NCBI RefSeq assembly: GCF_001612945.1
Contig: NZ_BDBK01000001.1
Coordinates: forward strand, 1,116,001 to 1,180,000
Reading direction: 5' to 3'
Source: Nocardia inohanensis NBRC 100128
Lineage (GTDB): Bacteria > Actinomycetota > Actinomycetes > Mycobacteriales > Mycobacteriaceae
DNA length: 64,000 bases
Positions 3,381 to 46,876 of this stretch are shown piece by piece. Every line of letters begins with the position of its first letter. The first letter of the stretch is position 1. A program made the position numbers and the translations under genes. The notes under the pieces were generated by a model. It did no database searches. It was not told the origin of the DNA and saw only the letters and a program-made list of their open reading frames with translations.

Positions 3381-4124
3381 ATGACCAATGCCGTCGGACC
3401 CCGCGCCGTCTTCGGCGTGATCGTGCCCAGTACCAATACCGTTGTCGAACACGACTATTGGCGGACCGGCCTGCCCGGCATCGCCTTCCGGGCCGGCTCG
3501 ATGTACATCCCGAACCCGGTGATGGGCGACGATGCGGACTTCCAGGCTCTGCTCGGTCAGATCCGCGCCTCCATCGACACCGCGGTACGCGACGTGCTCA
3601 CCGCCGAACCGGATCGCATGGTCATGGGCATGTCCGCCGAAACCTTCTGGGGCGGAGTCGAAGGCAACGCCGCGTTCGAACGACGCCTGCGGGAGCGCAC
3701 GGGGCTGCCGGTGACCACGGGTGCCAGTTCCTGCCGCGCGGCCTTGCGTGAACTGGGTTGCCGCCGGATCGCGGTCTTCTCGCCCTATCAGCCGATCGCG
3801 GACAAGGAGGTCGGCCGCTTCTTCACCGAGGCCGGATTCGATGTCGCGGCCATCACCGGTCTGCGTTGCCCGACCGCGATGGACATCGCCAAGGTCGATG
3901 ACGCCCGCCTGCGTGAGGTGGTGGCCGAGATCGACGGCCCCGGTGTGGAGGCCATCGTGCAGGTCGGCACGAACCTCTCGTTCGTGGCGCCGGCCGACCG
4001 GCTGGAAGGTGAACTCGGCAAACCGGTGATCGCGATCAACGCGGCGACCCTGTGGAATGCGTTGCGCGAGCACGGTTTCGATGATCGCGTGGATCATGCG
4101 GGCTCGCTGCTGCGGGAGCATTGA
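3381..4124 (+). CDS. maleate isomerase / Asp-Glu racemase superfamily protein, paralogue 1
   Basis: 247 residues from ATG 3381. An upstream extension of the frame has no homology to the paralogue and is excluded. The N-terminus has FGVIVPSTNTVVE, as in maleate cis-trans isomerases and arylmalonate decarboxylases. The protein aligns without gaps to the product at 6023-6766. The usual first catalytic Cys position reads MGMSAE (Ser85). The usual second Cys region reads QVGTNLS, with Val195 where the paralogue has Cys. Cys163 in GLRCPTA is conserved in both. The enzyme may therefore be non-isomerising or use altered chemistry. Its stop overlaps the next ATG (TGATG), indicating translational coupling to the CitE-like lyase. 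Confidence 0.82.
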   Translation: MTNAVGPRAVFGVIVPSTNTVVEHDYWRTGLPGIAFRAGSMYIPNPVMGDDADFQALLGQIRASIDTAVRDVLTAEPDRMVMGMSAETFWGGVEGNAAFERRLRERTGLPVTTGASSCRAALRELGCRRIAVFSPYQPIADKEVGRFFTEAGFDVAAITGLRCPTAMDIAKVDDARLREVVAEIDGPGVEAIVQVGTNLSFVAPADRLEGELGKPVIAINAATLWNALREHGFDDRVDHAGSLLREH

Positions 4125-4981
4125 TGGGGGAACGGATCGCCCGCTCGGCCCTGTACGTACCGGGCAACAAACCGGAACTGTTCGACAAGGCCGTCGAAGG
4201 CCCGGCCGATGTGATCCTGCTCGACCTCGAGGATTCGGTCCCACCGCCCGAGAAGGAAACCGCCCGCGCCACGGTCGCGACGTGGCTGCGCGAAGCCGCA
4301 CCCGCCGGCCGCCGCCTATGGGTCCGAGTGAACGCCGGCGAGCTGGGATACGAGGACCTGCGTGCGGTCGCCCTACCGGCCACGGCCGCCATCTGCCTCG
4401 CCAAAACCGAATCGGCACAACAGATCACCGCGGCGAGCGCATTACTCGACAAAGCCGGCCCACCGGCCGCCGAGATCCGGCTCTGCCCGCTCTTGGAAAG
4501 CGCGTCAGCGGTATTCGCCGCCCGCGAGATAGCCGCCGCACCGCGAGTCCTCCGCCTCCAGGTGGGCGAGGCGGACCTGCGCGCCGAACTAGCCATCACC
4601 CCCGCGGCCGACGAACGAGAACTCCTGTTCCTCCGAAGCCAAATCGTGCTCGCGTCCGCCGCCGCGGGCATCGTACCCCCACTGGGCCCCGCCCGCACCG
4701 ACTACCGTGACCTGGACGCCCTGCGAGCATCGACACTGGCGCTGTCCCGCCTGGGCTTCCGAGGCCGCTCCTGCATCCACCCCGCCCAGGTCCCGATCGT
4801 CAACAAGGTATTCACCCCCACCGCAGCAGACCTGGAACGGGCACAGAATGTCGTAAACCTTTTCGAAGCGGCAAACGGGGGAGTAGTCCTCGACCCGGAA
4901 GGCCGCATGGTGGATCTAGCGGTCATCCGCCACGCCCAACGCCTCCTCGGCGACGGAAAAGCCCACACCGACCCGCCGTGA
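4124..4981 (+). CDS. HpcH/HpaI aldolase, CitE-like (citrate lyase beta / malyl-CoA lyase family)
   Basis: About 285 residues. The ATG at 4124 overlaps the upstream stop. The N-terminus RSALYVPGNKPELFDKA and the motif ADVILLDLEDSVPPPEK are typical of CitE-like TIM barrels. Other family marks are LCPLLESA, LQVGEADL and GRSCIHPAQV near the C-terminus. Members cleave (S)-citramalyl-CoA, malyl-CoA or related beta-hydroxyacyl-CoA. Pairing with a maleate-isomerase-like enzyme and a TetR regulator suggests degradation of a small, branched dicarboxylate. The exact substrate cannot be read from the sequence. Confidence 0.88.
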   Translation: MGERIARSALYVPGNKPELFDKAVEGPADVILLDLEDSVPPPEKETARATVATWLREAAPAGRRLWVRVNAGELGYEDLRAVALPATAAICLAKTESAQQITAASALLDKAGPPAAEIRLCPLLESASAVFAAREIAAAPRVLRLQVGEADLRAELAITPAADERELLFLRSQIVLASAAAGIVPPLGPARTDYRDLDALRASTLALSRLGFRGRSCIHPAQVPIVNKVFTPTAADLERAQNVVNLFEAANGGVVLDPEGRMVDLAVIRHAQRLLGDGKAHTDPP

Positions 4982-5048: not shown

Positions 5049-6026
5049 GTGGATGGGGAGATGACGAGCGGGTGGTATCGGCGGTTCGCGGAGTTCGAGG
5101 CTCGAGGCAATTCAGAGTGTTATGAATTGTGGGCGTTGGGGATTGCCGCGGATCCGGGGCTGTTGTCGCTGATCGATGGCTTGCCACCGGAGAAACGGCA
5201 ACCGAACCTGGTGTTCACGGCCGCACGCTTCCTCGGGGTGGGTGAGGTGTCGTTCCCCGACTTCCGGATATGGGTGACACGGCACTGGGATGCGCTGTCG
5301 CACGTGATCATGGCGCGCCGGACGCAAACCAACGAGGTAGGCCGTGCCGCGGTACTGCTGCCGGTGCTCGCGCAGCTTCCCGGCCCGCTGGCCTTGATCG
5401 AGGTCGGTGCGTCGGCTGGATTGTGCCTGTATCCGGATCGATTCGGCTACCACTACGACGAGCGCACCCCACTCGATCCCGCCGGTGGTGTCTCCGACGT
5501 CCGGTTGCGGTGCGCCACTTCGGGCAAGCCGCCGATTCCGGATCGTCTACCCGAGGTGGTGTGGCGTGCGGGCGTGGACCTGAACCCCCTCGATGTCACC
5601 GACGCCGACCAGATGCGATGGCTGGAGCACCTGGTCTGGCCCGGACAACCCGAACGACTGCAACGACTTCGCGCAGCGGTGACGATCGCGAAGACCGAGC
5701 CCGCGCGGATCGTGACCGGCGATCTGAACGAGACTGTGGCAGAACTGGTTTCAGCTGCACCCGCTGATGCGACGGTGGTGGTTTTCCACAGTGCCGTGCT
5801 CGCATACCTGAGCGTCCGAGAGCGTGAACGTTTCGAACGAACAGTCCGCGCCCTGCCCTGCCACTGGATATCCAACGAAGGCTGCGGTGTCATCGACTCG
5901 ATCGCGGACCGACTGCCGCTGCCCGCACACGAGACGCCCGGCCGGTTCGTCGTCGCGCTCGACGGGATTCCGCTGGCTTACGCCGGCGCCCACGGGCAGA
6001 GCCTGGACTGGATCCAGCCTGACTAA
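5049..6026 (+). CDS. DUF2332 domain protein
   Basis: About 325 residues, cytosolic, spanning nearly the full DUF2332 family. Features are WYRRFAEFEARG at the N-terminus, a central LIEVGASAGLCLYPDR motif resembling a SAM-binding glycine loop, and VVVFHSAVLAYL near 250. The function of the family is unknown. GTG 5049 is preferred because AGGAAGG (5037-5043) lies five bases upstream; ATG 5061 is the alternative. The last codons overlap by four bases with the convergent isomerase gene on the minus strand. Confidence 0.82.
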   Translation: MDGEMTSGWYRRFAEFEARGNSECYELWALGIAADPGLLSLIDGLPPEKRQPNLVFTAARFLGVGEVSFPDFRIWVTRHWDALSHVIMARRTQTNEVGRAAVLLPVLAQLPGPLALIEVGASAGLCLYPDRFGYHYDERTPLDPAGGVSDVRLRCATSGKPPIPDRLPEVVWRAGVDLNPLDVTDADQMRWLEHLVWPGQPERLQRLRAAVTIAKTEPARIVTGDLNETVAELVSAAPADATVVVFHSAVLAYLSVRERERFERTVRALPCHWISNEGCGVIDSIADRLPLPAHETPGRFVVALDGIPLAYAGAHGQSLDWIQPD

Positions 6027-6766
6027 TAGTCGCGCAACAGTGCGCCGGCGCCCTGGATTCGGTCGTCGATTCCGTTGTCGCGTAAGGCCATCCACCAGGT
6101 GGCCGCGTTGATGGCGATTACGGGTTTGCCGAGCCAGCGTTCGGCTTCGTCGGCGAGGCGAACCATCGAGAGGTTGGTGCCGCATTGGATGAGGGCGTCG
6201 ATGTCGTCGCCGTCGACTTCGCGTAGTCCGGCGCGGAGTTCGTCCTCGGTGACGTGGGCGATGGAAACCGCGGTGGGACAGCGTAATCCCTTGATGGACT
6301 TGACGTCGAAGCCGAGTTCGCCGAAGAACCGGATCACATTCTCGTCGCCGATGGGCTGGTAGGGGGTTATTACGCCGATACGTTTGGCGTTGTAGAGGGT
6401 CAGGGCTCGGCGGCAGGCTTCGGCGCCGGTGGCGACCTGTAGGCCGGTGACGTCGTGGATTTGCTGGACGAATTGGCGGTTGCCTTCGATTCCGCCCCAG
6501 AAGGTTTCGGCGGACATGCCCATGACCATGTAGTCGGGTTCGCAGGTGAGGACGCGTTCGCAGGCGGCGACTATCTCGGCGCGGATCTGGGTCAGCAGGC
6601 GGTCCATGCCGGCGTCGTCGCTCATGTTCTGGTCGCGAATGTGGATGCGGCTGAAGTGGGCTGTCACGCCGGGGACGGTCATGCGGTAGAAGTCGGGTTC
6701 GACGATGGTGTTGGTGGAGGGGGCGATCACGCCGAATTTGCGGCGCCAGCCGAGGGCGTCGGTCAT
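6023..6766 (-). CDS. maleate isomerase / Asp-Glu racemase superfamily protein, paralogue 2
   Basis: 247 residues from ATG 6766 with a strong AAGGAG site. It is gap-free homologous to the product at 3381-4124. It has FGVIAPSTNTIVE, MGMSAETFWGG, GLRCPTA and IQCGTNLS. Cys195 lies one residue from the position of the second catalytic Cys of maleate isomerases, while the first Cys position is Ser85. It is the last gene of the RCCR/PaO-like operon; its start overlaps the stop of the membrane-protein gene (ATGA). In this setting it could isomerise an alkyl-maleate released from a pyrrole-derived maleimide. That is inference. Confidence 0.87.
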   Translation of the reverse strand: MTDALGWRRKFGVIAPSTNTIVEPDFYRMTVPGVTAHFSRIHIRDQNMSDDAGMDRLLTQIRAEIVAACERVLTCEPDYMVMGMSAETFWGGIEGNRQFVQQIHDVTGLQVATGAEACRRALTLYNAKRIGVITPYQPIGDENVIRFFGELGFDVKSIKGLRCPTAVSIAHVTEDELRAGLREVDGDDIDALIQCGTNLSMVRLADEAERWLGKPVIAINAATWWMALRDNGIDDRIQGAGALLRDY

Positions 6767-7413
6767 CGGATCATCTCCTTGTCGGGGTCGGCGGGCGCTG
6801 GCGCGGGCGCGCGCGGGAGTCGCCAGGCGGCGAGCAGGAAGGCGGCTTGGGCGGCGGTGTTGCACAGTTGCTCGACCCATTGCAGCGCGACCGTCTGGTC
6901 GGGTCTCGAAGCGAGCGGGCCGAGAATGAAGAACACCAGCAGCTGGGTGCCGAACAGGGCGGCGGTTGCGGTGTCGCCGCGGGCGCGGGCCAGGGCGATC
7001 AGGTGTACTCCGGCGATGGTGGCGAAGACCGTGGTGCTCACCAGCAGGGGGATCGGGTCGGCGGCCAGGATCGCGCCCAGGCCGCAGAGCATGATCAGTC
7101 CGGGGACGAGCAGCAGCATCCAGCGCGGTGTCTCGCCGGTGCGTTGCCGGCCCAATGCCAGGCACAGCAGCCCGAAGCCGAGCGACAGCAGCGGAAAAAG
7201 CAGGTCGCGCAACCACGGCAGGTCGGGACCACCGGTGGCGGCGATCAGTTTGGCGGTGGCCTTGGCGGATCCGCCCGCGCCGATCAGCGCTGCGGCGGGC
7301 ACGGCGCGCGCAGGGGTGAGGATCCGAGAGAGCAACAACACTCCGGCGGTGGTGAACAGCACCGGGGCGAAGTCCTCGACCGCCAGCGAGACCGGATAGT
7401 CGTAGGTGCTCAT
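6763..7413 (-). CDS. polytopic membrane protein, unknown family
   Basis: 216 residues with about six or seven hydrophobic helices (for example FAPVLFTTAGVLLLSRIL, LLFPLLSLGFGLLCLAL, MLLLVPGLIMLCGLGAI, LLVFFILGPLAS). The ATG at 7413 overlaps the SDR stop and the gene overlaps the isomerase start, so it belongs to the same operon. A role in passage or membrane anchoring of a hydrophobic intermediate is possible. No family was recognised. Confidence 0.78.
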   Translation of the reverse strand: MSTYDYPVSLAVEDFAPVLFTTAGVLLLSRILTPARAVPAAALIGAGGSAKATAKLIAATGGPDLPWLRDLLFPLLSLGFGLLCLALGRQRTGETPRWMLLLVPGLIMLCGLGAILAADPIPLLVSTTVFATIAGVHLIALARARGDTATAALFGTQLLVFFILGPLASRPDQTVALQWVEQLCNTAAQAAFLLAAWRLPRAPAPAPADPDKEMIR

Positions 7414-8180
7414 TCGGTGAATGGGTGTCGTTTGCGGAATGGTGCGGCGGCGAACCGGCCGATCACCTTGGGGGCGGTCAGCCAGCGCACATGCGCGCCA
7501 TTGCGGGTGCGGGTGACGGCGCACTCGGCCAGCCACGGCGCGACCGTGTCGACGCGGTCGGCGAGAATGTCGAACACCCTGCGCGCCTTCGCCAATTCGG
7601 CCGGGTCGTAGTAACCGTGGGTGAGCAGATCGGTGGTCACCATGCCGGGGCTGAGCAGACCGACCGAGACTCCCGCCGGCACCTCTTTTGCGAGAGCCCG
7701 GGTCAGGTAGGTGACGGCCCTCTTGCTGGCCCCGTAGGTGCTCAGTCCGGGGACGGTGCGGCCGTCGCTGCCCAGGCCCTCCATATTCCAGACGTGCCCA
7801 CCCCCGGCTGCCTTCATGGCGGCGATGGCGACCGCCGAACCATTGAGCACCCCGAGCAGATTGGTGTCGAGCACCTGCCGCGCCGTGGCGACCGGCAACT
7901 CCCACAGGGGTTTCCGGTCGTGGGAGATGCCCGCATTGTTGATCCAGACGTCGACGGTCCCGAACCTGCCGGCGGTGTCGTCCCAGAGCTGTTGCAGCTG
8001 TGCGCGATCGGTGACGTCGGCGGTCATCACCAGCACCTCGCCGGTGAGTTCGGCCCGCACCTTCGCCACCCGCTCCGCGTCGGTGCCGCACAGGGCGACC
8101 CGATGTCCGTTCGCGAGCAGTGCCCGCGCCATCCCGAGCCCGATGCCGCGGGTCCCGCCGGTCAGCACGACGGTGCTCAT
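7410..8180 (-). CDS. SDR oxidoreductase resembling chlorophyll b reductase (NYC1/NOL type)
   Basis: 256 residues, classical SDR. The cofactor motif is TGGTRGIG (8-15), the strand motif is WINNAG, and the catalytic YGASK is preceded by Ser/Thr. Beyond generic SDR marks it shares features I recall from plant NYC1/NOL chlorophyll(ide) b reductases: GGHVWNMEGLGSDG before the catalytic Tyr (plants GGHIFNMDGAGSGG), SPGMVTTDLL (plants SPGMVLTELL), a downstream FDILADRVDTVAPWL (plants FNI-ETVA-L), and a C-terminal LTAPKVI (plants LTPPRIL). It would reduce a formyl group on the macrocycle. It overlaps both neighbours by four bases within the RCCR/PaO-like operon. Confidence 0.85.
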   Translation of the reverse strand: MSTVVLTGGTRGIGLGMARALLANGHRVALCGTDAERVAKVRAELTGEVLVMTADVTDRAQLQQLWDDTAGRFGTVDVWINNAGISHDRKPLWELPVATARQVLDTNLLGVLNGSAVAIAAMKAAGGGHVWNMEGLGSDGRTVPGLSTYGASKRAVTYLTRALAKEVPAGVSVGLLSPGMVTTDLLTHGYYDPAELAKARRVFDILADRVDTVAPWLAECAVTRTRNGAHVRWLTAPKVIGRFAAAPFRKRHPFTE

Positions 8181-9085
8181 GCCCGCTCCAGTACGCCGTG
8201 CATGACCGCGGTCAAGGTGTTGTGGTCGAACATCTGGTAGACGACGGCGAGGCGGGTCCCCGCACCCATGCCGGGTTCGGCGTCCATCATGAATTCCCGG
8301 CCGATCAGGCGGCGGCCGTCGGCGGTGTGCAAGCGTACGAAATTAGCCCGTCCGTAAGAGTTTCCATTGCCCCAGACGTCAGGCCCCTCATGGAAGGAAC
8401 GCACACCGTCGCGGCGCACCGTGATCCGCGAGCGTGATTCCATCGGCCCCGACATGACCAGCTGATGTTCGGCGACAAGCAGCCCGACCGGATCGATCTC
8501 CAGCTCCATGCGCAGGCTACCCAGCGGCTGCTGACCGGCCGACCACAGCTCCAGGTCTCCGGCGTAGCGACTCTTGTCTTTGGTCGGAACGGTGAAAACA
8601 ACCGCTCCACAGCGTGTTTCGCTGGCAATACGCTCGTCTACGAGCTCCGGATCGCGGGTGTAGACACCGTTGAACACCCCGACCATGGCCGGCCCCTGGT
8701 ACAGCACCGACGAATACACCTGGGTGTCGCCGAGGGTCTGATTCCAGGTATTCAGTGACACCTGCCAGCCGGGCCCGTAATAGTTGGCGTCGACGAATCC
8801 TCCGTAGGGCTGCCCGGATCCGAAGAAGTCCGGCCCGGTGTAGATCCGGTCCGCGTCCGAGTCGCGCACGCCGAAGGCGAACGGCGCACCCAGCGCGAAG
8901 CGGCCCGCCAGGTCACCGCCGCCGGTCAGTCCGCCGTCCATGTAATAGGTGGTGGTGCCGTCGGCGAAGACCGAGGATCGGCGGATGTCCTCGAAACCGC
9001 GCCAGGTGCCCTGTGCGTCGAAGAGCGAAGGACGCCCGACCCATTCGCCGGCGATCCGCTGCTGGAACTCGCTCGGGGCGCTCAC
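8177..9085 (-). CDS. hypothetical beta-rich protein in the tetrapyrrole operon
   Basis: 302 residues from GTG 9085, which overlaps the upstream RCCR-like stop as GTGA. No signal peptide or membrane segment is seen. The sequence is dominated by short alternating strands rich in Gly, Tyr and Trp: RIAGEWVGRPSLFD near the start, then TTTYYMDGG, YGGFVDANYYGPGWQ and MVGVFNGVYTRDP. The opening GEW and the strand pattern suggest a lipocalin- or barrel-like binder, but I do not recognise the family. Its position between two pathway enzymes makes a pathway role likely, for example as a pigment carrier or an unrecognised dechelatase or hydrolase. That is a guess. Confidence 0.8.
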   Translation of the reverse strand: MSAPSEFQQRIAGEWVGRPSLFDAQGTWRGFEDIRRSSVFADGTTTYYMDGGLTGGGDLAGRFALGAPFAFGVRDSDADRIYTGPDFFGSGQPYGGFVDANYYGPGWQVSLNTWNQTLGDTQVYSSVLYQGPAMVGVFNGVYTRDPELVDERIASETRCGAVVFTVPTKDKSRYAGDLELWSAGQQPLGSLRMELEIDPVGLLVAEHQLVMSGPMESRSRITVRRDGVRSFHEGPDVWGNGNSYGRANFVRLHTADGRRLIGREFMMDAEPGMGAGTRLAVVYQMFDHNTLTAVMHGVLERA

Positions 9086-9798
9086 GCGACCAGCTCCCCG
9101 CGCACCCGCTCGGACTGTTCGGCCCCGAGCAACCGGGTCACCTGCGCCCACACCGGATCGACCGCCGGGCTGAACAGGTTCGCGCGGTTGGCGCGATCCC
9201 GCGCCGCGAGATCCCCCTCGATCGCCGGAACCCCCTTCTCCACCAGCGTGAGCCAGTGCTCGAGGTAGGCGTCCACGGTCGCGGTCAGGGCGGTGAAGGC
9301 GTCGGCCCCGGCCCGGCACACCAGCATCCACGGCGACATCAGCGCCCGCTGCCGCGGCCCGATGCCGGCAGGGGAGACGCCCTCGATCCGCCAGGCGTCC
9401 TCGAGCAGCGCGGTCAGCGGCAGATAGGCGGCATCGAGGTACTCGAGGTGCACGGCCAGATCGGCGCGCGGAATCAGGTCCAGATGCATGGCGTAGTAGT
9501 CGCCGCCGTACACCGAGTCCAGCGTGAAATGCGGTACGGCGGAATCACTTCCGGTGAAGGCGAAGATCATATGGCTGTCCAGCCCGATGGGCGGCAACAC
9601 CAGATTCACGGTCACCGCCTTGTCGATCGGACCGCCGCGCAGCACCCGCAGCCGCCCCACCGGCTCCGGAGACATCGGACTGGTCAGCGCCACATCCTCC
9701 ACGGTGTCCAGGTCGAGCGCGGAGCTCAAGGCGGTGAGAGTGCGCGTGCTGAGCGCGGCGGGTAGGCTGCTCGCGCCGGTCGATTCGATTGTGCTCAT
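9082..9798 (-). CDS. red chlorophyll catabolite reductase (RCCR)-like protein 1
   Basis: 238 residues. It shows the RCCR/ferredoxin-dependent bilin reductase layout: PHFTLD (89-94), followed by HLDLIPRADL (105-114), EYLDAAYLPL (119-128), a MSPWMLVCR strand, and ARDRANRANLF near 199. Plant RCCR has APNF-VVE, LDLPHRKDLVLNPDYL, and a late ERRDKSFRR segment in the same order. Asp94 occupies the place of the acidic residue in the plant VVEL strand. RCCR-type enzymes reduce the linear product made by pheophorbide a oxygenase using ferredoxin. The gene overlaps the Rieske oxygenase gene by four bases. Confidence 0.8.
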   Translation of the reverse strand: MSTIESTGASSLPAALSTRTLTALSSALDLDTVEDVALTSPMSPEPVGRLRVLRGGPIDKAVTVNLVLPPIGLDSHMIFAFTGSDSAVPHFTLDSVYGGDYYAMHLDLIPRADLAVHLEYLDAAYLPLTALLEDAWRIEGVSPAGIGPRQRALMSPWMLVCRAGADAFTALTATVDAYLEHWLTLVEKGVPAIEGDLAARDRANRANLFSPAVDPVWAQVTRLLGAEQSERVRGELVA

Positions 9799-10916
9799 AG
9801 GTCATTGCCTCCGGTGCGGGCCTTGTGCACCCAGGCACTGGCCAGTTCGGGATTGTCGCGACGGGCGGGCGAGGCGATGACGGTGGCGGTGCGCCGCGGA
9901 GCGTCACCGGTGACGATGTCGTCGCCCCCGACCCACCAGCCCTGTTTCACGAGTTCGAGCCGCCGCCGCCGATAGGCGACCTGGAGTCCGTCACTGCGCA
10001 CATGCAACTCGTCGGAGAGGTCGAAGGGCAGCAGCTCGGGGCGCTGAGACTCCACCACCGGCCGGTCCTGCAACAGGATCTTCTCGATTCGCTTGCGCGC
10101 GTTGCCGTCCGCCCAGGCGCCGGTGAAGAAGTTGCGGAAGCCCAGAATCTTGACCAGCGTCTTGTCCTGCGACAGCGGAATATTGAAGTCGTAGAGGATC
10201 AGGTCGCCGATCGGCAGCCGCACGTGCAGCTTCACGATATTGGGCAGATACCAGGCATTGGTGACGGTGACATACTCGGCATGCGGTCGCCGCCGCGCGA
10301 GCAGCCCCCACAATCCCTTGGGCGGCGGCGGGCTGAGCTGGATATCGGCCTCGGCCGACCAATCCGTCTGCCGCACCCGGAAATCGGGGATCTCCGGCTT
10401 GTCCGGATTGCCGAAGGCGGTGCCGTGCACGAACGGGGTGTGTGAGGCATCGACCACGTTCTCGAAGGTGCGCTCGTAGTTGGCGTCGATCACCATATCG
10501 ACCTGTACGGCCCGGAAAGCGGGGTCGTCCCACTGCGGGATCTCGGGGATCGGCGGCCGTTCGGCTTCGGGCAGATCACCCAGGAAGGCCCAGATCATGC
10601 CGTGCCGTTCCAGCGTCGGGTAGGCATCCACCCGGGCCTTGCGCGGGATCTTGCGCTCCTCGGCATTGGCCGGGATCTTCACGCATTTGCCCTCGGAGTC
10701 GTACTGCCAGCCGTGGTACGGGCAGGTGATGCAGTCACCGGTGACCTTGCCCATCGAGAGCGCGCCGCCGCGATGCACGCACAGGTCCGAAAGGCACACG
10801 GCCGCACCGGCTTCGGTGCGGTACAGCACGAAGTCCTGGCCCAGGCAGGTCACCCGGCGCGGCTCCCGCGTCACCCGGTCCGCGAATTCGACCGCGTACC
10901 AGAAGTTCTTCAACAT
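9795..10916 (-). CDS. Rieske non-heme iron oxygenase, pheophorbide a oxygenase (PaO)/VanA-type
   Basis: 373 residues. The Rieske [2Fe-2S] ligands are CVH (Cys46, His48) and CPYH (Cys65, His68). The mononuclear iron site is FENVVDASHTPFVH (Asp156, His159, His164, with Asn153). It opens directly with MLKNFWYAVE, as in single-component oxygenases of the vanillate demethylase, PaO and CAO group. It lacks the C-terminal CxxC and membrane anchor of plant PaO, so it should be soluble. No reductase or ferredoxin gene lies in the operon. With RCCR-like genes on both sides, macrocycle cleavage of a pheophorbide-like tetrapyrrole is the favoured role. Demethylation of an aromatic ether is the alternative. 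Confidence 0.88.
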   Translation of the reverse strand: MLKNFWYAVEFADRVTREPRRVTCLGQDFVLYRTEAGAAVCLSDLCVHRGGALSMGKVTGDCITCPYHGWQYDSEGKCVKIPANAEERKIPRKARVDAYPTLERHGMIWAFLGDLPEAERPPIPEIPQWDDPAFRAVQVDMVIDANYERTFENVVDASHTPFVHGTAFGNPDKPEIPDFRVRQTDWSAEADIQLSPPPPKGLWGLLARRRPHAEYVTVTNAWYLPNIVKLHVRLPIGDLILYDFNIPLSQDKTLVKILGFRNFFTGAWADGNARKRIEKILLQDRPVVESQRPELLPFDLSDELHVRSDGLQVAYRRRRLELVKQGWWVGGDDIVTGDAPRRTATVIASPARRDNPELASAWVHKARTGGNDL

Positions 10917-10929
10917 CGTTCGGTTACTC

Positions 10930-11895
10930 CTATCGCCGGATCAGCCGGATGACGGCATCGGACTCGTCCGGCCCGGTATCGGGCTGGGCCAGCTGCGCTT
11001 TGGCCGCGGCATCGCCGCACAGGTGGGTGCGCAGGAAGGCCGAGGTGAGACGGGCGAAAGGCGGCAGCGCATCGGTGTCGCCGGGTCCGTCGAGGAAGGC
11101 CCGCGCCGCGGTCGGGTCGGCGTCGGCGATGCCGAAATGATTGGCTCCCCGCACTACCGCCAGCAGATGCTCGCCCTCGGGCAACGCCTCGGTGAAGGTG
11201 CGGCGCACCGGGTCGGGCCGGTTCGTGCCGTCTTCGCCGTAGCGGTCGGCGCTGCCCTGAATGACACCGTCATTGGTGCCGACCCCCAGTAGCACCGGGC
11301 AGCTCACCTGGGCGGGCAGCACGGTGCCCGGCTCCCAGCCCAGCATGGTCGCCACCATGGTGTGCGCGCCCCATGCGAAAACCGCTGAGACGGAAGGGAA
11401 GAAGCGCGCCGACTGCAATGCCACGGTCCCGCCGGCGGAGTGTCCGCCGAGGGCGACGCGGTCCAGATCAAGGGCGCCTCGCAGTGGCGGCAGCTCGTTC
11501 AATTCGGCCAGCGCATCGAGCACCGCGCCGATGGTGGGGCAGGTGGGACGGGTGCCGTAGGCGTCCGGGCGAGCGGCATCGAGGTCCACGCCGGGCGTCA
11601 ATCCCTTTTGGCCGCCGAACAATTCGGCGACGCGGTCCATCGTGACCACGACGAAGCCGTGCTCGGCGACCGCGGTCGCGAAGCGGCGATAGGCATCCTG
11701 GCCTACGTTCACTCCGGACAGGAATACGACCACCGGGTAGGGCGCGGCCACCGGGTCGGGCGCGAAGACGCCGGTCAGCCGTTCGGCATCGCCGCCGCCG
11801 GCCACGGCGGGGTAGTACACCTTGAGATGTGCGGTGTCGAAGGGCGGTTCGCCGTCGGTGCGGACGGACCACCACAGGGATCGGATCAGGCGCAT
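10930..11895 (-). CDS. chlorophyllase-like alpha/beta hydrolase
   Basis: 321 residues with no signal peptide, so probably intracellular. YPVVVFLSGVNVGQDAYRRF and VAEHGFVVVTMD match the chlorophyllase pattern (FPV-VFLHG then IASHGFIVVAP). The nucleophile elbow is GGHSAGG (Ser153; plants GHSRGG), a candidate acid is Asp209, and the catalytic His is 253 in GANHFGIAD. It shares GANHFG-AD and the upstream motif with the secreted protein at 32590-33471. Removal of the phytyl or a methyl ester from a tetrapyrrole is the expected reaction in this operon. It is 13 bases upstream of the Rieske gene. Confidence 0.82.
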   Translation of the reverse strand: MRLIRSLWWSVRTDGEPPFDTAHLKVYYPAVAGGGDAERLTGVFAPDPVAAPYPVVVFLSGVNVGQDAYRRFATAVAEHGFVVVTMDRVAELFGGQKGLTPGVDLDAARPDAYGTRPTCPTIGAVLDALAELNELPPLRGALDLDRVALGGHSAGGTVALQSARFFPSVSAVFAWGAHTMVATMLGWEPGTVLPAQVSCPVLLGVGTNDGVIQGSADRYGEDGTNRPDPVRRTFTEALPEGEHLLAVVRGANHFGIADADPTAARAFLDGPGDTDALPPFARLTSAFLRTHLCGDAAAKAQLAQPDTGPDESDAVIRLIRR

Positions 11896-11920
11896 GCGGC
11901 CCTGCCTTCCGGGAAACGAG

Positions 11921-12730
11921 TCACAGCTGAGGACGTGGTAGTTCGCGATCGCCGCCCCACAGGGCGCGAACCAGCCGCTGGGTGAGTTCGGGACCGAAGA
12001 GCCGTTCGCCCATCACGTTCGCCGGATCACGCTCGGCGATATTGCGGCGCACCGCGAGATCACGTGCGGCGAGTGCGGCGCGCTCGGGACCGGGCACCGG
12101 CTCGGCCTCGGCGACCCAGCCCAGCCATTGATCCACACGCGCGGTGAGCAATTCGGCGACGGTGTCGAGGTTGGGGCGAGTCGGCGGGAACGAATAGCAG
12201 TAGGCGGTGGGGGAGAGGCTGGCCCGGATGAAGCCGGTGCGGCTGGTGAACCAGGTGAAGTCCCGATGTTCTTCCTTGAACGCCAGCCAGGCCGGATCGT
12301 TCGGCGCGTAATAGCTGTCGTAGTACGCGCCGTCACCGACGAGGTCGCCGCGCGGGATGGCATCGACGTAGAACCAGCCTTCGGGCCAGAGCAGCAATGC
12401 CGAACCAAGATGCGGCGCGCGCACCTGCGGTCCGAGCCATGCGGTCAGGTGCAGATTCACGAAACCGGTACGCGGATCACCGATCCAGGAGTGCACCAGC
12501 CAGTCGATCTCCGGCCCGGAGTACGCGGCCAGGCTACCGGCCGGGCCGGTGGCCGGATCGCCGTAGGAGTCCAGATCGGCGGTGCTGGGATCGCGGGTGA
12601 GCTCGAAGCGCTCCGCGATCCGGGATCGCAACCCGCTCAGCAGTTCTCGCCATTCCTCGAAGGTCTCGGTGACATCGACGCGCGGATTCTCGTCGACCAT
12701 CTGCTCGACGTGTTGCAGGGTTTCACTCAT
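11921..12730 (-). CDS. red chlorophyll catabolite reductase (RCCR)-like protein 2
   Basis: 269 residues, closer to plant RCCR than the paralogue at 9082. HSWIGDPRTGFVNLHL (80-95) corresponds to plant GSWIHCKIPTGVSLNI. APHLGSA (105-111) corresponds to APNFVVE. DAIPRGDL (123-130) and AYYDSYY correspond to LPHRKDL and DYLKEYY. FIRASLSPTA (167-176) corresponds to FVRSAFSPTA. AARDLAVRRNIAERD (221-235), FGPELTQRLVRAL and a trailing G match the plant C-terminus. Ala111 replaces the plant acidic residue of the VVE strand, so the two copies may differ in catalysis or form a heteromer. The gene is 25 bases upstream of the chlorophyllase-like gene. Confidence 0.85.
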   Translation of the reverse strand: MSETLQHVEQMVDENPRVDVTETFEEWRELLSGLRSRIAERFELTRDPSTADLDSYGDPATGPAGSLAAYSGPEIDWLVHSWIGDPRTGFVNLHLTAWLGPQVRAPHLGSALLLWPEGWFYVDAIPRGDLVGDGAYYDSYYAPNDPAWLAFKEEHRDFTWFTSRTGFIRASLSPTAYCYSFPPTRPNLDTVAELLTARVDQWLGWVAEAEPVPGPERAALAARDLAVRRNIAERDPANVMGERLFGPELTQRLVRALWGGDRELPRPQL

Positions 12731-12755
12731 GATCGCCTCGCTGGGTAGGGGGTTG

Positions 12756-14369
12756 TCACACGGTCTCTTTCGTCACGGTCATGGCCGCGAGCGGTCCGCG
12801 CGGGCGGTTCGCCAGCAGATCGGTGCCGCGCGACACCTGACGGTTGACGGCCTGGGCGGGGCGGATGGCGGCGCGGACGCTGGTCGCTCCCGGGGCCACC
12901 GGGGTGACCTCGGGATGGCTGATCACGCCGGTGAACGGTCCCAGCCAGGCGGTCCACAGCGTGAAATCGGCGCTGAGCCCGTGGATTCCGCCGGTCAGCG
13001 AGTGACCGGGGGTGAATCCGGCGGCTACCACATTGAGCCGGTTCTCCGCCGCACGCTCGGGCAGTCCGAGGCGCAGTTCCCACTCCTCGGTGGGCGTGTG
13101 TGGAACGGCGACCACGTCGGCGTCCTGAATCGCGGCCAGCCGGAACGTTTCCGGGAAGAGCGCGTCGTCGCCGACCACGAGGGCGAGCCGACCCCACGCC
13201 AAATCGAATACCTCGAGCTCGTCGCCGGGTTCGGACAGCCATGGGTGCCGGGCGGTGGGATGCAGCTGCGGCTGGCGGCCGACGATACCGTCCGCGTTGA
13301 TGAGCACGCCGTGATGCGCGCCGCCCTCGCGCCGGGAGGTCACCACGTGACACTGCGTATCGCGCAGTGCGCGAACGATTTCCGGCACGGTCAGGGCGGC
13401 CAGTTCGGGCAGGACGATCAGATCGGTGTCCCGGGCCATCCGCGCGATGATGCGGCTGCTGGGCAGGCTGACCGCCGCCATCACATGGTCCGCCCCGGCG
13501 GGACGCAGCCGGGCGGCGGTCGTGCGCAGGGGCGCGTACACCGCGGGCCGGCGGGTCGCGAGGATATCGGTGCCGTCCGGACGCCGCTTGTCCTGTGCGG
13601 CTTCGATATCGATATCGGCGAACACCACCGCGGCACCGTCGGCCGGAGCGATCGCCACGGTGGTGCCGTCGGGCGCCACGATCTGGCTTTCGCCCGCGCC
13701 GTACAGCCGATCCGCCGGCACGCCCAGCCGGGCGGCGATGGCGGGCAACTGTTCGGCGGGCAACAGCGGACCGACCTTGTTCGCCGCCACCACCCACACC
13801 TTGTTCTCCGCGGCGCGCACCGGAATGTGCAGGCTCGCTTCATCGGTCGCGAACGAATTGAGGCTGTTGAGCAGCAGCTGCGCGCCCCGCACCGACAGCG
13901 AGCGGGTGACCTCGTTGATCACCCCCTCCATGCAGGCGTACATGCCGATCCGGCCCAGCGGGGTGTCGATGACCGGTGAATCGTCGAGTCCGGGATCGAG
14001 ATGGTCGTTCTCCGCACCCATCAGGATCTGCTTGTCCGATTCGCCGAGCAGCTCGCCGCCGGGCCCGTACAGCAGGCTGGTGCCGGTGGTGCGCCCGTCG
14101 TCGCGGGCCAGCGTGACGCCGATCTTCACGTACATGGCATGCCGCGCGGCGCGTTCGGCGATCGCCGTCAGGAACGAATCTCCGATCCGGCAGGCCATTC
14201 GATGCGCATGAGCCCGATCGGTATACCACGATAGGTGGTTACAGAACTCCGGTAGCACCACGAGTTCGGCTCGGGCAGCGGCGGCCTCGTCGAGCGCGCG
14301 CAGGCACGCGTCGAGGTTGGCCGCGACATCGGTGCCCGCGGCGAGTTGTGCGGCCGCGACTCGTGTCAT
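12756..14369 (-). CDS. tandem carbon-nitrogen hydrolase (nitrilase superfamily) with degenerate second domain
   Basis: 537 residues from ATG 14369. A TTG at 14393 would extend the protein by eight residues into the region just before the operator. Domain 1 (about 1-275) has the full Glu-Lys-Cys set: LVVLPEF (Glu41), ESDKQIL (Lys113) and YACMEG (Cys146). Domain 2 (about 285-480) keeps DLIVLPEL but has VVGDDALFPE where the Cys should be, so it is probably inactive or regulatory. Nitrilase-type enzymes hydrolyse amides, carbamoyl groups or nitriles. As first gene of the RCCR/PaO-like operon it could deamidate a maleamate-type or lactam fragment. The substrate is inferred. Confidence 0.87.
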   Translation of the reverse strand: MTRVAAAQLAAGTDVAANLDACLRALDEAAAARAELVVLPEFCNHLSWYTDRAHAHRMACRIGDSFLTAIAERAARHAMYVKIGVTLARDDGRTTGTSLLYGPGGELLGESDKQILMGAENDHLDPGLDDSPVIDTPLGRIGMYACMEGVINEVTRSLSVRGAQLLLNSLNSFATDEASLHIPVRAAENKVWVVAANKVGPLLPAEQLPAIAARLGVPADRLYGAGESQIVAPDGTTVAIAPADGAAVVFADIDIEAAQDKRRPDGTDILATRRPAVYAPLRTTAARLRPAGADHVMAAVSLPSSRIIARMARDTDLIVLPELAALTVPEIVRALRDTQCHVVTSRREGGAHHGVLINADGIVGRQPQLHPTARHPWLSEPGDELEVFDLAWGRLALVVGDDALFPETFRLAAIQDADVVAVPHTPTEEWELRLGLPERAAENRLNVVAAGFTPGHSLTGGIHGLSADFTLWTAWLGPFTGVISHPEVTPVAPGATSVRAAIRPAQAVNRQVSRGTDLLANRPRGPLAAMTVTKETV

Positions 14370-14396
14370 GCGCCGCCCCCTGTTCCACTCCAAAGT

Positions 14397-14421
14397 GTTT
14401 CGGAGATCGAAACACTGTTTC
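14397..14421. promoter_or_regulatory. regulon operator upstream of the RCCR/PaO-like operon
   Basis: A perfect GTTTC-N7-GAAAC-N3-GTTTC arrangement; the central part is an 8-5-8 perfect inverted repeat at 14395-14415. It sits 28 bases upstream of the nitrilase start at 14369 and has the same spacing as the site at 43153. Confidence 0.8.
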
Positions 14422-25128: not shown

Positions 25129-26568
25129 TCAACCTGGCTGCTCGCCGAGCTGGCCGGGGTAGGCGCGGGCGGGCATGCCGGTGCCGCCGGGACGGAAAGC
25201 CGCGGGGGCGTGGATGACCGTGGTCTGGAGGTATTCGCGCAGGCCCTCGTCGGCGTACTCACGGCCGAAACCGCTGCGTTTGGTGCCGCCGAAGGGGGCG
25301 CGCAGGGACATTCCGGTGCGGTTGTGGGTATTGATGAAGGTGAACCCCGCCTCGACCTGGGCCGCGACAGCGTAGGCGTGGGCTTCGTCGGCGGACCAGA
25401 CCGAGGCGGCCAAGCCGAGCTCGGAATCATTGGCCCGGGCGATGACTTCGTCCTCGGTGTTGTAGGTGAGCAGGGGGACGAGGGGACCGAATTGCTCGCG
25501 GCGCACCAGGTTCGCGTCGTCGGGGAGGTCCAGGGCCAGCGCCGGGGCGATGAAGTAGCCGTCGGTTCCGGTTGGGGCATCCGCGAGCGGGATCAGCCAG
25601 CCGCCCCGGTTCCAGCTGTCGGCGATCAGGTCCGTCATGCGGTCGGTGGCGGCGCGGTTCACCAGCGGGCCCATGGTGACCTGCTCGTCGAGCGGATCGC
25701 CGACCCGCAGGATGCGTCGCGCCGCGGCCAGATAGGACTCGACGAACTCGTCGAGCCGTGTCTTGGGGACGTACAGGCGTTTGGCGGCCATGCACACCTG
25801 GCCGGCGGTGGCGAAGGAGGCGAGTACGAGACGCTCGTAATCGCTTGGGGTGAGCGCGAAGTCGGGCAGGAAGATGGCCGGGTCGTTACCGCCGAGCTCG
25901 AGGGTGACCGGGGTGAGGGCGCTTCCGGCCGCCGCGGCGATGCTGCGTCCGGCCTGCTCACCGCCGGTGAAGGCGACCTTGGCGATCAGCGGGTGGGTGA
26001 TGAGCGCGCCGACGGTATCGGGGCCGCCGTGGATCACGTGGACGCCGGGCAGCAGAGCGGCAGCCTCGGTCACCGCGAGCGGGGCCAGCGGAGAAGGCTT
26101 GAGCACCACCGTGTTTCCCGCCGCGAGGGCCGGTCCGAGCTTGAGCATGGCCAGGATGATGGGCGCGTTCCACGGGGTGATGGCGGCGATCACGCCATAC
26201 GGGGCGGGGATGCGGGACAGGCGGCCCTGCTCGTCGTCGATGACCGCACCGGTCAACACCCTCGGCGCATTATCGCGCACCCAGCGTAGATACGTTGCCG
26301 CGAAACGGATTTCGCCTTGGCAATCGGTGACCGGTTTGCCGCTCTCCCGGGCTAGCAGGACCGCGAGCCTGGCGGCCTTCGCCTCCAAAGCCCCCGCCGC
26401 CGAGTCGAGCGCCGCGAGCCGCTGCTCCACCGGTGCCTGCGACCACGCCCGAAAATCTCGATGCGCGCGCCGCACCACCACGTCCACCGCGCCCGGGGCG
26501 GTCATCGGGACCGAGCCGACGATTTCGGCAGGGCGAGCGGGGTTCTCGCGCCTGATCCGCTCACTCAC
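25129..26568 (-). CDS. aldehyde dehydrogenase (NAD(P)-dependent)
   Basis: 479 residues from GTG 26568, overlapping the upstream stop. ALDH motifs: TPWNAPIILAMLKLGPALAAGNTVVLKPSPLAP, FTGGEQAGRSI, catalytic Glu in LELGGND, catalytic Cys in TAGQVCMAAKRLYV, and EQFGPLVPLLTY. It is the last gene of the flavin-monooxygenase operon that begins at the operator 30853-30877. It likely oxidises an aldehyde made by that operon, possibly from the phytol side chain or an aromatic fragment (inferred). Confidence 0.9.
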   Translation of the reverse strand: MSERIRRENPARPAEIVGSVPMTAPGAVDVVVRRAHRDFRAWSQAPVEQRLAALDSAAGALEAKAARLAVLLARESGKPVTDCQGEIRFAATYLRWVRDNAPRVLTGAVIDDEQGRLSRIPAPYGVIAAITPWNAPIILAMLKLGPALAAGNTVVLKPSPLAPLAVTEAAALLPGVHVIHGGPDTVGALITHPLIAKVAFTGGEQAGRSIAAAAGSALTPVTLELGGNDPAIFLPDFALTPSDYERLVLASFATAGQVCMAAKRLYVPKTRLDEFVESYLAAARRILRVGDPLDEQVTMGPLVNRAATDRMTDLIADSWNRGGWLIPLADAPTGTDGYFIAPALALDLPDDANLVRREQFGPLVPLLTYNTEDEVIARANDSELGLAASVWSADEAHAYAVAAQVEAGFTFINTHNRTGMSLRAPFGGTKRSGFGREYADEGLREYLQTTVIHAPAAFRPGGTGMPARAYPGQLGEQPG

Positions 26569-27698
26569 GACCGCGCCTCCAGCGAATCGAGCAGGCAGGC
26601 GCGCCGCAGGTAGGCGCGGGCGGCGACCGGGTCGGCGGGCAATTCCCGCACCTGCTGCCGGAAGCCGTCGTCGTGTCCGCGCAGGCGCTGCCAATTGTCG
26701 TGGCTGGTGCGCTGCACATACTCGATCGCCACGGTGCGGCGACGTGTGGCCGCCAGATCGAGGGCGGTCTCGGGTGCGCCGTCGAGAACATCGGCGAGGG
26801 TGTTCGCGAGTTCGACGGCATCGTGGATGCCGCTGTTCATGCCCATCCCGCCGAGTGGATTGTTCACGTGCGCGGCATCGCCCATGAGCAGCACGCGGCC
26901 GATCCGGAAATGGTCGGTGACGCGCTGATGCACCCGATAGAGGGAGGCGTGCAGCAAACGCCACGGTCGGCCGAGATCGGCTACCGCGGTCAAACGTTCT
27001 GGTAGCCGGGACAATTCGAGCTCGTCCGGCGTATCCCCGGGAGTGGGCAGCAGCACCCGCCAGTGTTGTGGGGTGCGCAGCAATACCAGCCACTCATCGG
27101 GGTCGAACACGTAGTTGATGGGTGCGATCCCCGGTAGCGCCGCCGCGAGATCCTCGTCGACCGAGGCGACCAGGAAGCGTTCGGGGTAGGTGGTGCCCTC
27201 GAAGCGAGCGTCGAGGCCGGTGCGGACCGCCGAATGCGCGCCGTCCGCGCCGATCACCCATTCCGCACGCAGCGGCCCGCGTGAGGTGTGCAGGATGACG
27301 CTGTCGTCACCGCGATAGAGGCCCTGCACCGGCTGATCGAAACGCACGTCGGCGTCGAGGGCATCGAGCAGGATCGGGGTGAGTTTGCTCTGCTCGCACT
27401 GCACTCGGAACGGATACCGGGTGTCACCGGCCAGCACGCCCAGATCGAGGGTGGCGATCTCGCCGCCGCCGCGTTCCCGATACTGGAAGGTCGAGGCGAC
27501 GATTCCCTTGTCCAGCAACGGATTCAGCACACCCAGGTCCTCGAGCATCTCGAGGGTGGGCGGATGAAAGGTGGAGGCGCGGGATTCGGTGGCCAGCGTC
27601 TTACCGGCCTCCAATACCGTCACGTCGTGACCGCGCCGGTGCAGGGTCAGGGCGGCGGTCAATCCGACCGGTCCGGCCCCGACCACGACGACGCTCAC
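26565..27698 (-). CDS. FAD-dependent aromatic hydroxylase (PHBH/UbiH family)
   Basis: 377 residues from GTG 27698. The N-terminal FAD motif is VVVVGAGPVGLTAALTLHRRGHDVTVLEAG. The second is ADGAHSAVR and the third GDAAHVNNPLGGMGMNSGIHDA. It lacks the C-terminal thioredoxin-like domain of phenol hydroxylases. Members use NAD(P)H to hydroxylate or epoxidise aromatic or unsaturated rings. It overlaps its neighbours on both sides by four bases in the flavin operon. Confidence 0.9.
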   Translation of the reverse strand: MSVVVVGAGPVGLTAALTLHRRGHDVTVLEAGKTLATESRASTFHPPTLEMLEDLGVLNPLLDKGIVASTFQYRERGGGEIATLDLGVLAGDTRYPFRVQCEQSKLTPILLDALDADVRFDQPVQGLYRGDDSVILHTSRGPLRAEWVIGADGAHSAVRTGLDARFEGTTYPERFLVASVDEDLAAALPGIAPINYVFDPDEWLVLLRTPQHWRVLLPTPGDTPDELELSRLPERLTAVADLGRPWRLLHASLYRVHQRVTDHFRIGRVLLMGDAAHVNNPLGGMGMNSGIHDAVELANTLADVLDGAPETALDLAATRRRTVAIEYVQRTSHDNWQRLRGHDDGFRQQVRELPADPVAARAYLRRACLLDSLEARS

Positions 27699-29083
27699 GA
27701 GGTGTGCAGGGCAAAGCGGCCCTCGACGCCGAGAACGCGGGTGCCGGTGAAGAACCGGAGGGTCTCCGCGGTGCCTTCCTCACCGAGGCCGGACAGACCC
27801 CAGGCCGGGCGCGGAGTCATCAGGTGCAGGCTCATGATCGAGGACCCGTTGACCTTCACTTCTCCGGCTCGAATCCGTTGCGCCACCGACAAAGCCAGCT
27901 CTTCGTCGGCCCCGCAGACATAACCCTCGAGCCCGAACGGGCCGGAGTTCGCCAGCCGGACGGCCTCGTCGATGGAGGTGTAGGTGACGACGCCCGCGAC
28001 CGGGCCGAAGACCTCATCGGTCAGATCATCGTCGAGCAGGGTGGGGGCGAAATAGTTCCCCTGTTCGGGAATCGTCCCGAACGACCGCGACCCGCGCCCC
28101 GATACCGCCGTTCGCATGGCGGCCACATGCCGGGAGTGCACCAGGGGCCCGAAGTCGGTTCCAGGGTCGAGCGGGTCGCCGATTCGCAAGTCCGCCAGCC
28201 GTTTACCGATGGCTTCCAGCAGGTCTTCGGCATGATCCGCCGGCAGGACGAGTCGCCCCAGTGCCCGGCACCACTGCCCGTTGAGGGTGGTGAGCAGCTC
28301 CGCGGCCATCCGGGCGGCCGTCTCGAGGTCCGCGTCCGGTAAGACCACGAGTGGATTGTTGCCGCCCAGTTCCAGCTGACAGGGCCGCAGCAGCGGAGCC
28401 GATGCGGTGGCCACGGACCGCCCGCCGGCCAGCCCGCCGGTGAACGACACCGCCCTGATGCGCGGGTCGCCCACCAGCTGCGCCCCGGTTTCCGCGCCGC
28501 CGTGCACGAGCTGGAACATGCCGTCGGGGACATGCTCGGCGATCACCCGGGCGAGCGGAATCGAACTGTAGGGGGCGAATTCGCTGACCTTGAGGATGAC
28601 CGGGCAGCCCGCCGCGAGCGCATTGGCGACCTTGTGCGCGGCCATCGGCGCGGGTGCGTTCCACGGTGTCAGGCACAGCGCGGGCCCGAGTGGCAGCCGG
28701 TGCACCTGCACCCCGTCGCGATCGGCGCGCAGCACGCCGTTGCGCAGCTGGTCGGCGGCGAGCCGGAAGGATCCGGAGACGATCACGCCGAGCGGGGCGG
28801 TCTGCCGGATCGGGACACCCGTTGCCCGCGAATCCAATTCGGTGATGACGCCCAGTTGCTTGTCGAGATCGTCCGCGATGGCGTCGAGCAGTTCGGCGGT
28901 GATCGCGCCCCCGGCACGATCGGCGACCTCGAGTGCGCGTTCCACTCGTTCGGGAGCGGTGGCCATGCCGCGTGCCACCGCCGCGCCGGTCGCCGGATTC
29001 TCCAGGTCCAAACCGAGATCGACAGTGGGGCGGCCCCATTGCCCGTCGACGAAATCGAGTATCCCGGGCAGTTCCGCGCTCAC
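27695..29083 (-). CDS. aldehyde dehydrogenase (vanillin/benzaldehyde dehydrogenase-like)
   Basis: 462 residues from GTG 29083. Motifs: LTPWNAPAPMAAHKVANALAAGCPVILK, FTGGLAGGRSV, catalytic Glu in LELGGNN and catalytic Cys in NGQWCRALGRL. The EVFGPVAGVVTYTSIDEAVRLAN segment is also typical. The region around the catalytic Cys differs from the standard GQxC, and the protein is shorter than usual, suggesting an unusual subgroup. It overlaps the flavin monooxygenase gene by GTGA. Confidence 0.88.
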   Translation of the reverse strand: MSAELPGILDFVDGQWGRPTVDLGLDLENPATGAAVARGMATAPERVERALEVADRAGGAITAELLDAIADDLDKQLGVITELDSRATGVPIRQTAPLGVIVSGSFRLAADQLRNGVLRADRDGVQVHRLPLGPALCLTPWNAPAPMAAHKVANALAAGCPVILKVSEFAPYSSIPLARVIAEHVPDGMFQLVHGGAETGAQLVGDPRIRAVSFTGGLAGGRSVATASAPLLRPCQLELGGNNPLVVLPDADLETAARMAAELLTTLNGQWCRALGRLVLPADHAEDLLEAIGKRLADLRIGDPLDPGTDFGPLVHSRHVAAMRTAVSGRGSRSFGTIPEQGNYFAPTLLDDDLTDEVFGPVAGVVTYTSIDEAVRLANSGPFGLEGYVCGADEELALSVAQRIRAGEVKVNGSSIMSLHLMTPRPAWGLSGLGEEGTAETLRFFTGTRVLGVEGRFALHTS

Positions 29084-30842: not shown

Positions 30843-30852
30843 GTTCCCCTCC

Positions 30853-30877
30853 GTTTCGATAGTGGAAACGCTGTTAC
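30853..30877. promoter_or_regulatory. regulon operator upstream of the flavin-monooxygenase operon
   Basis: GTTTC-N7-GAAAC-N3-GTTAC. The first two half-sites are perfect. It ends at a distance typical for overlap with the promoter of the flavin reductase gene (start 30842). Confidence 0.75.
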
Positions 30878-30919
30878 GCACAAGGTAACGCCAGGGGTGG
30901 GGTGGTGCAAGTGGGCGAC

Positions 30920-46735: not shown

Positions 46736-46763
46736 GGTGCGCTCCTCCCTTGCCGCCCGCAGT

Positions 46764-46780
46764 GTTTCGCTGAAGGAAAC
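46764..46780. promoter_or_regulatory. regulon operator upstream of CaiB 2
   Basis: A perfect GTTTC-N7-GAAAC copy 28 bases from the CaiB 2 start at 46735; outer half-sites are degenerate. Confidence 0.72.
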
Positions 46781-46865: not shown

Positions 46866-46876
46866 TGGAGTGGATG

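Follow-up and report, generated by a model that had tools for sequence, protein, structure and literature searches.

A conserved actinobacterial gene island in Nocardia inohanensis NBRC 100128 probably degrades chlorophyll-type tetrapyrroles. The island lies in a 64,000-nt stretch of the genome (the window; contig NZ_BDBK01000001.1, positions 1,116,001 to 1,180,000), spans ~45 kb and includes the proteins of this genome that best match three plant enzymes of chlorophyll breakdown. It consists of a nine-gene operon on the minus strand (6023..14369; module 1) and two linked gene sets, one oxidative (module 2) and one with cyclic-amide hydrolases and lyases (module 3). An earlier note on this sequence had described nine closely packed or overlapping minus-strand genes; re-checked coordinates and overlaps bear this out, with five adjacent pairs overlapping by 4 bases and remaining gaps of 25, 25, and 13 bases (gene calls were made by a heuristic script). 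The operon-only view of that note overlooked the two additional modules. With all three, the pigments would be opened and are likely digested further as food.

Operon proteins related to plant chlorophyll-breakdown enzymes

RCCR1 is a full-length match to the red chlorophyll catabolite reductase (RCCR) family. Its profile aligns with the solved Arabidopsis RCCR at E 1.6e-15 across 28-257 and favours RCCR above bilin reductases (60 vs 39 bits). The gene occurs at a single place in the genome, and databases already name individual RCCR1 proteins 'Red chlorophyll catabolite reductase'. Glu154 and Asp291 are active-site residues of Arabidopsis RCCR; the conserved Asp of an RDPAN motif in RCCR1 sits no more than two positions from Asp291, the exact offset varying with the alignment. 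RCCR2 scores below the PF06405 cut-off (17.9 vs 24.9 bits) and is assigned to the fold common to RCCR and bilin reductases, which rules out an unrelated fold. Both proteins that the earlier note had called RCCR-like thus belong to the RCCR/bilin-reductase fold or family.

When plant NOL (P0254) was compared with the whole genome, the operon short-chain dehydrogenase (SDR) ranked first of 29 matches (117.7 vs 67.9 bits), the alignment spanning residues 71-342 of 347, so that its proposed identity as a NYC1/NOL-like SDR stands. In ten additional genomes with the operon, its SDR ranked first in eight and second in two. Ten Nocardia genomes without RCCR1 gave a top score of 69.1 bits, one of them having no match at E 1e-16; these controls rule out that the NOL match is an ordinary SDR score. 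Four of the ten operon genomes (L085, L086, L087, and L088) carry a second NOL-like SDR above 100 bits elsewhere, and in two of the ten a non-operon SDR scores higher. No module 1 or module 2 gene besides the SDR was found around these second copies; that of L088 lies ~27 kb from the operon, amid that genome's module 3 relatives.

Arabidopsis pheophorbide a oxygenase (PaO), used as a bait after its family membership was confirmed, ranks the operon Rieske oxygenase, here named PAO, first of seven genome matches (68.3 vs 44.1 bits). The Rieske Cys/His pattern is present in all 14 members. Judged by rank, PAO is PaO-like, outside family PF08417.

CLH carries a GHSxGG motif in 14/14 members. NIT has two nitrilase-type domains, the first retaining Glu-Lys-Cys and the second without the Cys (motif check, 12/12). 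The LIPO model (pLDDT 73) matches 2o62 in Foldseek at 1.2e-8 with a TM of 0.37 and weakly suggests a DUF3598-like double barrel; that LIPO is a known bilin lyase is improbable, as it has no family match and the weak DUF3598/BFA1 match comes from this low-confidence model only. MAI has maleate isomerase and arylmalonate decarboxylase among its relatives and may still be a plain maleate isomerase. Maleate cis-trans isomerase has two active-site cysteines; Met81 of MAI aligns with the first, in a poorly aligned, low-confidence stretch, and Cys192 falls opposite the residue that immediately precedes the Cys in which 2xec and 2xed differ. MEM is found in part of the loci (53/80).

Conservation and distribution of the operon

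The operon neighbourhood is conserved in other genomes: among the best 80 of 150 related stretches, eight core genes keep one order and one strand in 73. Five of the exceptions lose or flip a gene, L074 is a short contig, and L029 has an orphan RCCR1. The latter, from Nonomuraea corallina (10001-10819), is 70% identical and has no operon within the 20.8 kb examined. Carriers span several actinomycete families with a largely common gene set and include Nocardia, Streptosporangium, Nonomuraea, Planobispora, Actinomadura, Thermomonospora, Streptomyces, Yinghuangia, Micromonospora, Actinoplanes, Catellatospora, Dactylosporangium, and others. The operon is rare. In the family sample it occurs in five of the 15 same-genus genomes listed and in none of the other 186; in the phylum sample, with six candidates scored per genome, it occurs in 3/396 including the window genome. 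The operon stretch has the G+C content of its surroundings (0.67-0.69) in a genome of 8.1 Mb, and the nearest named relatives belong to Nocardia. A plasmid-borne origin was ruled out, RCCR1 having no match in 72,556 plasmid records.

Linkage was assessed for 50 window genes at ≥40% identity, up to ~40 kb on each side of RCCR1 (less in several cases), in 15 genomes: ten selected operon genomes, three of four other Nocardia (G164 omitted), and G456 and G496 from the phylum sample; window genes MerR, abh33, and x54 were excluded from the counts. RCCR1, RCCR2, PAO, and NIT are linked in 15/15 genomes, LIPO, CLH, and MAI in 14/15, SDR in 13/15, and MEM in 6/15. The 50 genes divide into 24 module genes, 18 others linked in 0/15, and eight others linked in one to ten genomes: NCS1 (10), DUF4437 (9), TetR (5), r317b (5), r317 (4), NCS2 (4), CLHsec (2), and d460 (1).

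Two linked modules

Upstream of NIT and in the same direction, neighbour clustering revealed a set comprising an aldehyde dehydrogenase (ALDH), an FAD hydroxylase, a second ALDH, an acyl-CoA-dehydrogenase-fold protein, and a flavin reductase, flanked by a divergent IclR gene. Of the 72 loci whose upstream sequence reaches 6 kb or more, 70 have ALDHb there on the same strand, and 63 have ALDHa, FADMO, and ALDHb together. In the window, module 2 occupies 25129-31779, ~10.8 kb from NIT; across loci the ALDHb-NIT distance ranges from 0.07 to 7.9 kb. That gene distances differ between genomes argues against mere shared synteny. The module 2 genes and MEM2 are linked in 12-14/15 genomes. ACADMO, whose best matches in the Protein Data Bank (PDB) are 3m9v/4kcf (FAD-dependent oxidoreductase) and 3mxl (nitrososynthase), is a candidate group-D-type flavin monooxygenase. 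FLR scores 128.6 bits against the HsaB profile, under the cut-off of 230, and its relative in L036 is fused to an HMGL-like domain. Beside module 2, an alpha/beta hydrolase (32590-33471) with a hydrophobic N-terminus, possibly a signal peptide, has the genome's top score to the chlorophyllase profile (42 bits) and is linked in 2/15 genomes only.

Module 3 is seen beside the operon core of distant relatives. In G456 and G496, RCCR1 is 45-46% identical and RCCR1-PAO-RCCR2-LIPO are kept together; both carry a CoA-transferase and an HpcH/HpaI lyase next to this core, joined by a cyclase and hydantoinase A/B in G456 and by HMGL in G496. In the window, the CoA-transferase, cyclase, and HMGL homologues are found at 39961-46738 and the HpcH lyase at 4121-4981. 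ISO39, CoAT1, HMGL41, Cyc44, CoAT2, HYD46, and HpcH are linked in 10-12/15 genomes, and MAI2, which has Val at the position of the C-terminal Cys of MAI, in 7/15. The HpcH/HpaI lyase scores 170.9 bits against the RipC profile, under the cut-off of 375; the best plasmid relative of ISO39 is annotated as N-carbamoylsarcosine amidohydrolase. L092 (1692-15964), from a distant actinobacterium, has a CoA-transferase, cyclase, hydantoinase B/A, and luciferase-like monooxygenase and then the core, all on one strand. Plasmid pDND3A of Rhodococcus gordoniae (L145 249-16678) carries a module-3-like cluster of hydantoinase A/B, cyclase, CoA ester lyase, and a major facilitator superfamily (MFS) transporter, with no annotated RCCR gene.

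Table 1. Genes of the three modules in the window (linkage as number of 15 genomes where listed)
Gene	Product	Position	Strand	Evidence
Module 1
NIT	nitrilase-superfamily amidase	12756..14369	-	PF00795 152.5 bits, two stretches
RCCR1	red chlorophyll catabolite reductase family	11921..12730	-	PF06405 48.8 bits (cut-off 24.9)
CLH	alpha/beta hydrolase	10930..11895	-	PF07224 29.6 bits (cut-off 26), best stretch short
PAO	Rieske non-heme iron oxygenase	9795..10916	-	Rieske and VanA_C in 14/14 aligned members
RCCR2	second RCCR-fold protein	9082..9798	-	
LIPO	all-beta protein	8177..9085	-	no Pfam match; GTG start
SDR	NOL/NYC1-like short-chain dehydrogenase	7410..8180	-	36% identity to plant NOL, direct comparison
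MEM	small membrane protein	6763..7413	-	no Pfam family; about five hydrophobic segments
MAI	Asp/Glu-racemase superfamily enzyme	6023..6766	-	PF17645 69.2 bits; aligned with maleate isomerase 2xed
Module 2
ALDHb	aldehyde dehydrogenase	25129..26568	-	PF00171 402.9 bits
FADMO	FAD aromatic-hydroxylase family	26565..27698	-	PF01494 187.6 bits; linked 14/15
ALDHa	aldehyde dehydrogenase	27695..29095	-	PF00171 303 bits; linked 14/15
ACADMO	acyl-CoA-dehydrogenase-fold protein	29080..30351	-	Pfam acyl-CoA_dh domains; linked 14/15
FLR	HsaB-like flavin reductase	30360..30881	-	PF01613 149 bits; linked 12/15
IclR	regulator, divergent from module 2	30994..31779	+	PF01614 152.2 bits; linked 14/15
MEM2	membrane protein beside IclR	31785..32492	-	no Pfam family; linked 12/15
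Module 3
MAI2	second Asp/Glu-racemase superfamily enzyme	3381..4124	+	PF17645 82.7 bits; linked 7/15
HpcH	HpcH/HpaI C-C lyase, RipC/CitE-like	4121..4981	+	PF03328 110.1 bits; linked 11/15
ISO39	isochorismatase-family amidase candidate	39329..39946	-	PF00857 131.6 bits; linked 11/15
CoAT1	class III CoA-transferase	39961..41157	-	63% identical to L093 PF02515 protein; linked 12/15
HMGL41	HMG-CoA-lyase-like lyase	41269..42147	+	57% identical to L093 PF00682 protein; linked 12/15
Cyc44	'putative cyclase' metal hydrolase	44742..45539	-	55% identical to L092 PF04199 protein; linked 12/15
CoAT2	second class III CoA-transferase	45548..46801	-	60% identical to L092 PF02515 protein; linked 11/15
HYD46	dihydroorotase/allantoinase-family cyclic amidohydrolase	46838..48340	+	70% identity to annotated dihydroorotase family protein; linked 10/15

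A putative route for pigment breakdown

For the pathway we infer a chemistry of ester removal, formyl reduction, ring opening, two reductions, cutting, ring hydrolysis, and diacid finishing. CLH would cleave either the phytyl ester or the methyl ester of ring E, and the NOL-like SDR would reduce the formyl group of a b-type pigment or of the opened chain. PAO would open the macrocycle using O2 and electrons supplied by a ferredoxin whose gene is not linked. RCCR1 and RCCR2 would then reduce two sites of the bilin, which the LIPO barrel may hold, and the freed ring-E beta-keto acid could be decarboxylated by MAI as a relative of arylmalonate decarboxylase; these roles of LIPO and MAI are guesses. 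Cleavage and oxidation of the chain would fall to module 2, with its flavin monooxygenases and aldehyde dehydrogenases; a Rhodococcus pyrrole-2-carboxylate monooxygenase, listed among the references of PMC6165268, is a precedent for flavin-dependent attack on a pyrrole ring. Finally, HYD46, ISO39, NIT, and Cyc44 would act on lactam or maleimide rings, opening them and freeing ammonia, and branched diacids would enter central metabolism via the CoA-transferases and lyases. Decarboxylation, chain cutting, and ring hydrolysis with diacid use are the least certain steps. A full chlorophyll mineralisation route within one actinomycete island, from NOL-like reduction through branched diacids into central metabolism, is a tentative proposal.

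Alternative explanations

Several observations weigh against a chlorophyll-degrading island. A C-terminal CxxC is a feature of pheophorbide a oxygenase; it is found in 0/14 PAO members, and the PF08417 PaO domain is found in none of them and nowhere in the genome. The PaO/VanA-type oxygenase of the earlier note holds as the genome's best plant PaO match, a ranking that covers the window genome only, but not as a PaO family member. In RCCR1, the position of Glu154 is Ala in 20/20 proteins in one alignment and a gap in a joint alignment. CLH, likewise proposed in that note as chlorophyllase-like, matches PF07224 weakly, if above the cut-off, and has the GHSxGG motif, but its best PDB relatives are polyethylene terephthalate hydrolases and cutinases; because it is third of three genome matches to the chlorophyllase profile, it is the weakest of the four plant parallels. 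In the fetched stretches, SDR is missing in the two most distant genomes and CLH in one. The scan of island genes revealed no recognisable ferredoxin gene, and a pyridine-nucleotide flavoprotein lies within the island only in L053 and L065. Nor could an importer be recognised in the island of the window; by eye, ATP-binding cassette (ABC)-type genes lie near 12 loci and MFS-type genes near six. CoAT1 and HMGL41 are not nearby in 3/15 genomes, and the Rhodococcus plasmid cluster comes from a plasmid collection without any RCCR1 match, so that module 3 is linked but separable. A search for the Staygreen Mg-dechelatase (PF12638), a further point of comparison with plants, gave no match; no control matched either, and this absence was set aside as evidence.

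These points leave room for other substrates. The island may instead degrade already-open bilins or heme-derived tetrapyrroles (biliverdin, bilirubin, or urobilin-type). The Rieske enzyme would then demethylate or hydroxylate a bilin and open no macrocycle. We regard this as unlikely because the SDR is specifically NOL-like and RCCR1 prefers RCCR to bilin reductases; moreover, the scan of island genes, which did not extend to the genome at large, revealed no recognisable heme oxygenase. The generic aromatic and cyclic-amide catabolic families of modules 2 and 3, the stand-alone plasmid cluster, and the small-molecule demethylases and hydroxylases among PAO relatives with structures would all suit catabolism of a non-tetrapyrrole N-heterocycle or plant compound, the RCCR-fold proteins being co-opted for another reduction. 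This is improbable, as it would require a NOL-like SDR, the genome's most PaO-like Rieske enzyme, and a pair of RCCR-fold genes to have come together in one operon by coincidence. Housekeeping or detoxification of the cell's own porphyrins (e.g. coproporphyrin overflow), rather than a food pathway, is very improbable: patchy distribution and linked CoA-transferase and lyase genes fit catabolism better. Jointly, the three explanations retain a substantial minority of the probability because of the PAO tests, Glu154, the hydrolase, the ferredoxin, and the SDR loss.

Relation to known systems

The plant PaO/phyllobilin pathway (NYC1/NOL, CLH/PPH, PaO, and RCCR) offers a similar set of NOL-like SDR, ester hydrolase, Rieske oxygenase, and RCCR, here side by side; PaO, RCC, and RCCR are described in plants in PMC4950323. 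Unlike the plant pathway, the island has a bacterial operon, two RCCR-fold proteins, a Rieske enzyme outside PF08417, the extra proteins NIT, LIPO, and MAI, and linked oxidative and cyclic-amide modules. The island would work in the manner of that pathway; because PAO falls outside the PaO family, we do not file it as a member.

Two-component flavin monooxygenase pathways for pyrrole-2-carboxylate or aromatics occur in Rhodococcus (entry in the references of PMC6165268). Module 2 resembles their layout in combining a candidate acyl-CoA-dehydrogenase-fold oxygenase with a flavin reductase and aldehyde dehydrogenases. It differs in being tied to RCCR/PaO-like genes. Cyclic imide or maleimide degradation employs an imidase, a half-amidase, and maleate isomerase; the window similarly brings together cyclic amidohydrolase, isochorismatase-family amidase, and maleate-isomerase-like proteins. 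Unlike that maleate isomerase, MAI shows no Cys at the first active-site position in the alignment, which is of low confidence in this stretch.

Rockwell and colleagues described globin-containing gene clusters of heterotrophic bacteria that encode bilin reductases, with RCCR as the outgroup (PMC10151467). These ferredoxin-dependent bilin reductase/pre-PcyA clusters share the fold and occur in non-photosynthetic bacteria. They encode bilin-binding globins, whereas the partners here are a Rieske oxygenase, an SDR, and hydrolases. The word 'actinobacteria' is absent from the main text of that paper.

Among the papers listed by our search of the open literature, none describes a bacterial operon or gene set of this kind; the earlier note knew of no such operon. 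Plants stop at phyllobilins, and to our knowledge chlorophyll disposal by soil microbes is genetically undescribed. With a defined gene set in actinomycetes that can be cultured, what becomes of leaf pigment can be tested directly. The set also has a bearing on where RCCR came from and provides enzymes to make or remove phyllobilins.

Other genes of the window

Two neocarzinostatin-family proteins (PF00960) are encoded at 16021-17264. Because the prototype of this family binds a chromophore, a secreted pigment-binding role is conceivable by analogy; NCS1 is linked in 10/15 genomes. Two related hydrolase-like proteins with signal-like N-termini, judged by eye, lie at 682-1635 and 42171-43139, and their relatives occur near the operon in 4/15 and 5/15 genomes. 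The DUF4437 cupin protein (1800-2693) is operon-linked in 9/15. Adjoining the island at 49771-52739 are a carotenoid-cleavage-oxygenase-like gene and then an aldehyde dehydrogenase (by eye; linked 0/15). A run of mce-like membrane genes, also recognised by eye, occupies 57845-63987; the four tested are linked in 0/15 genomes.

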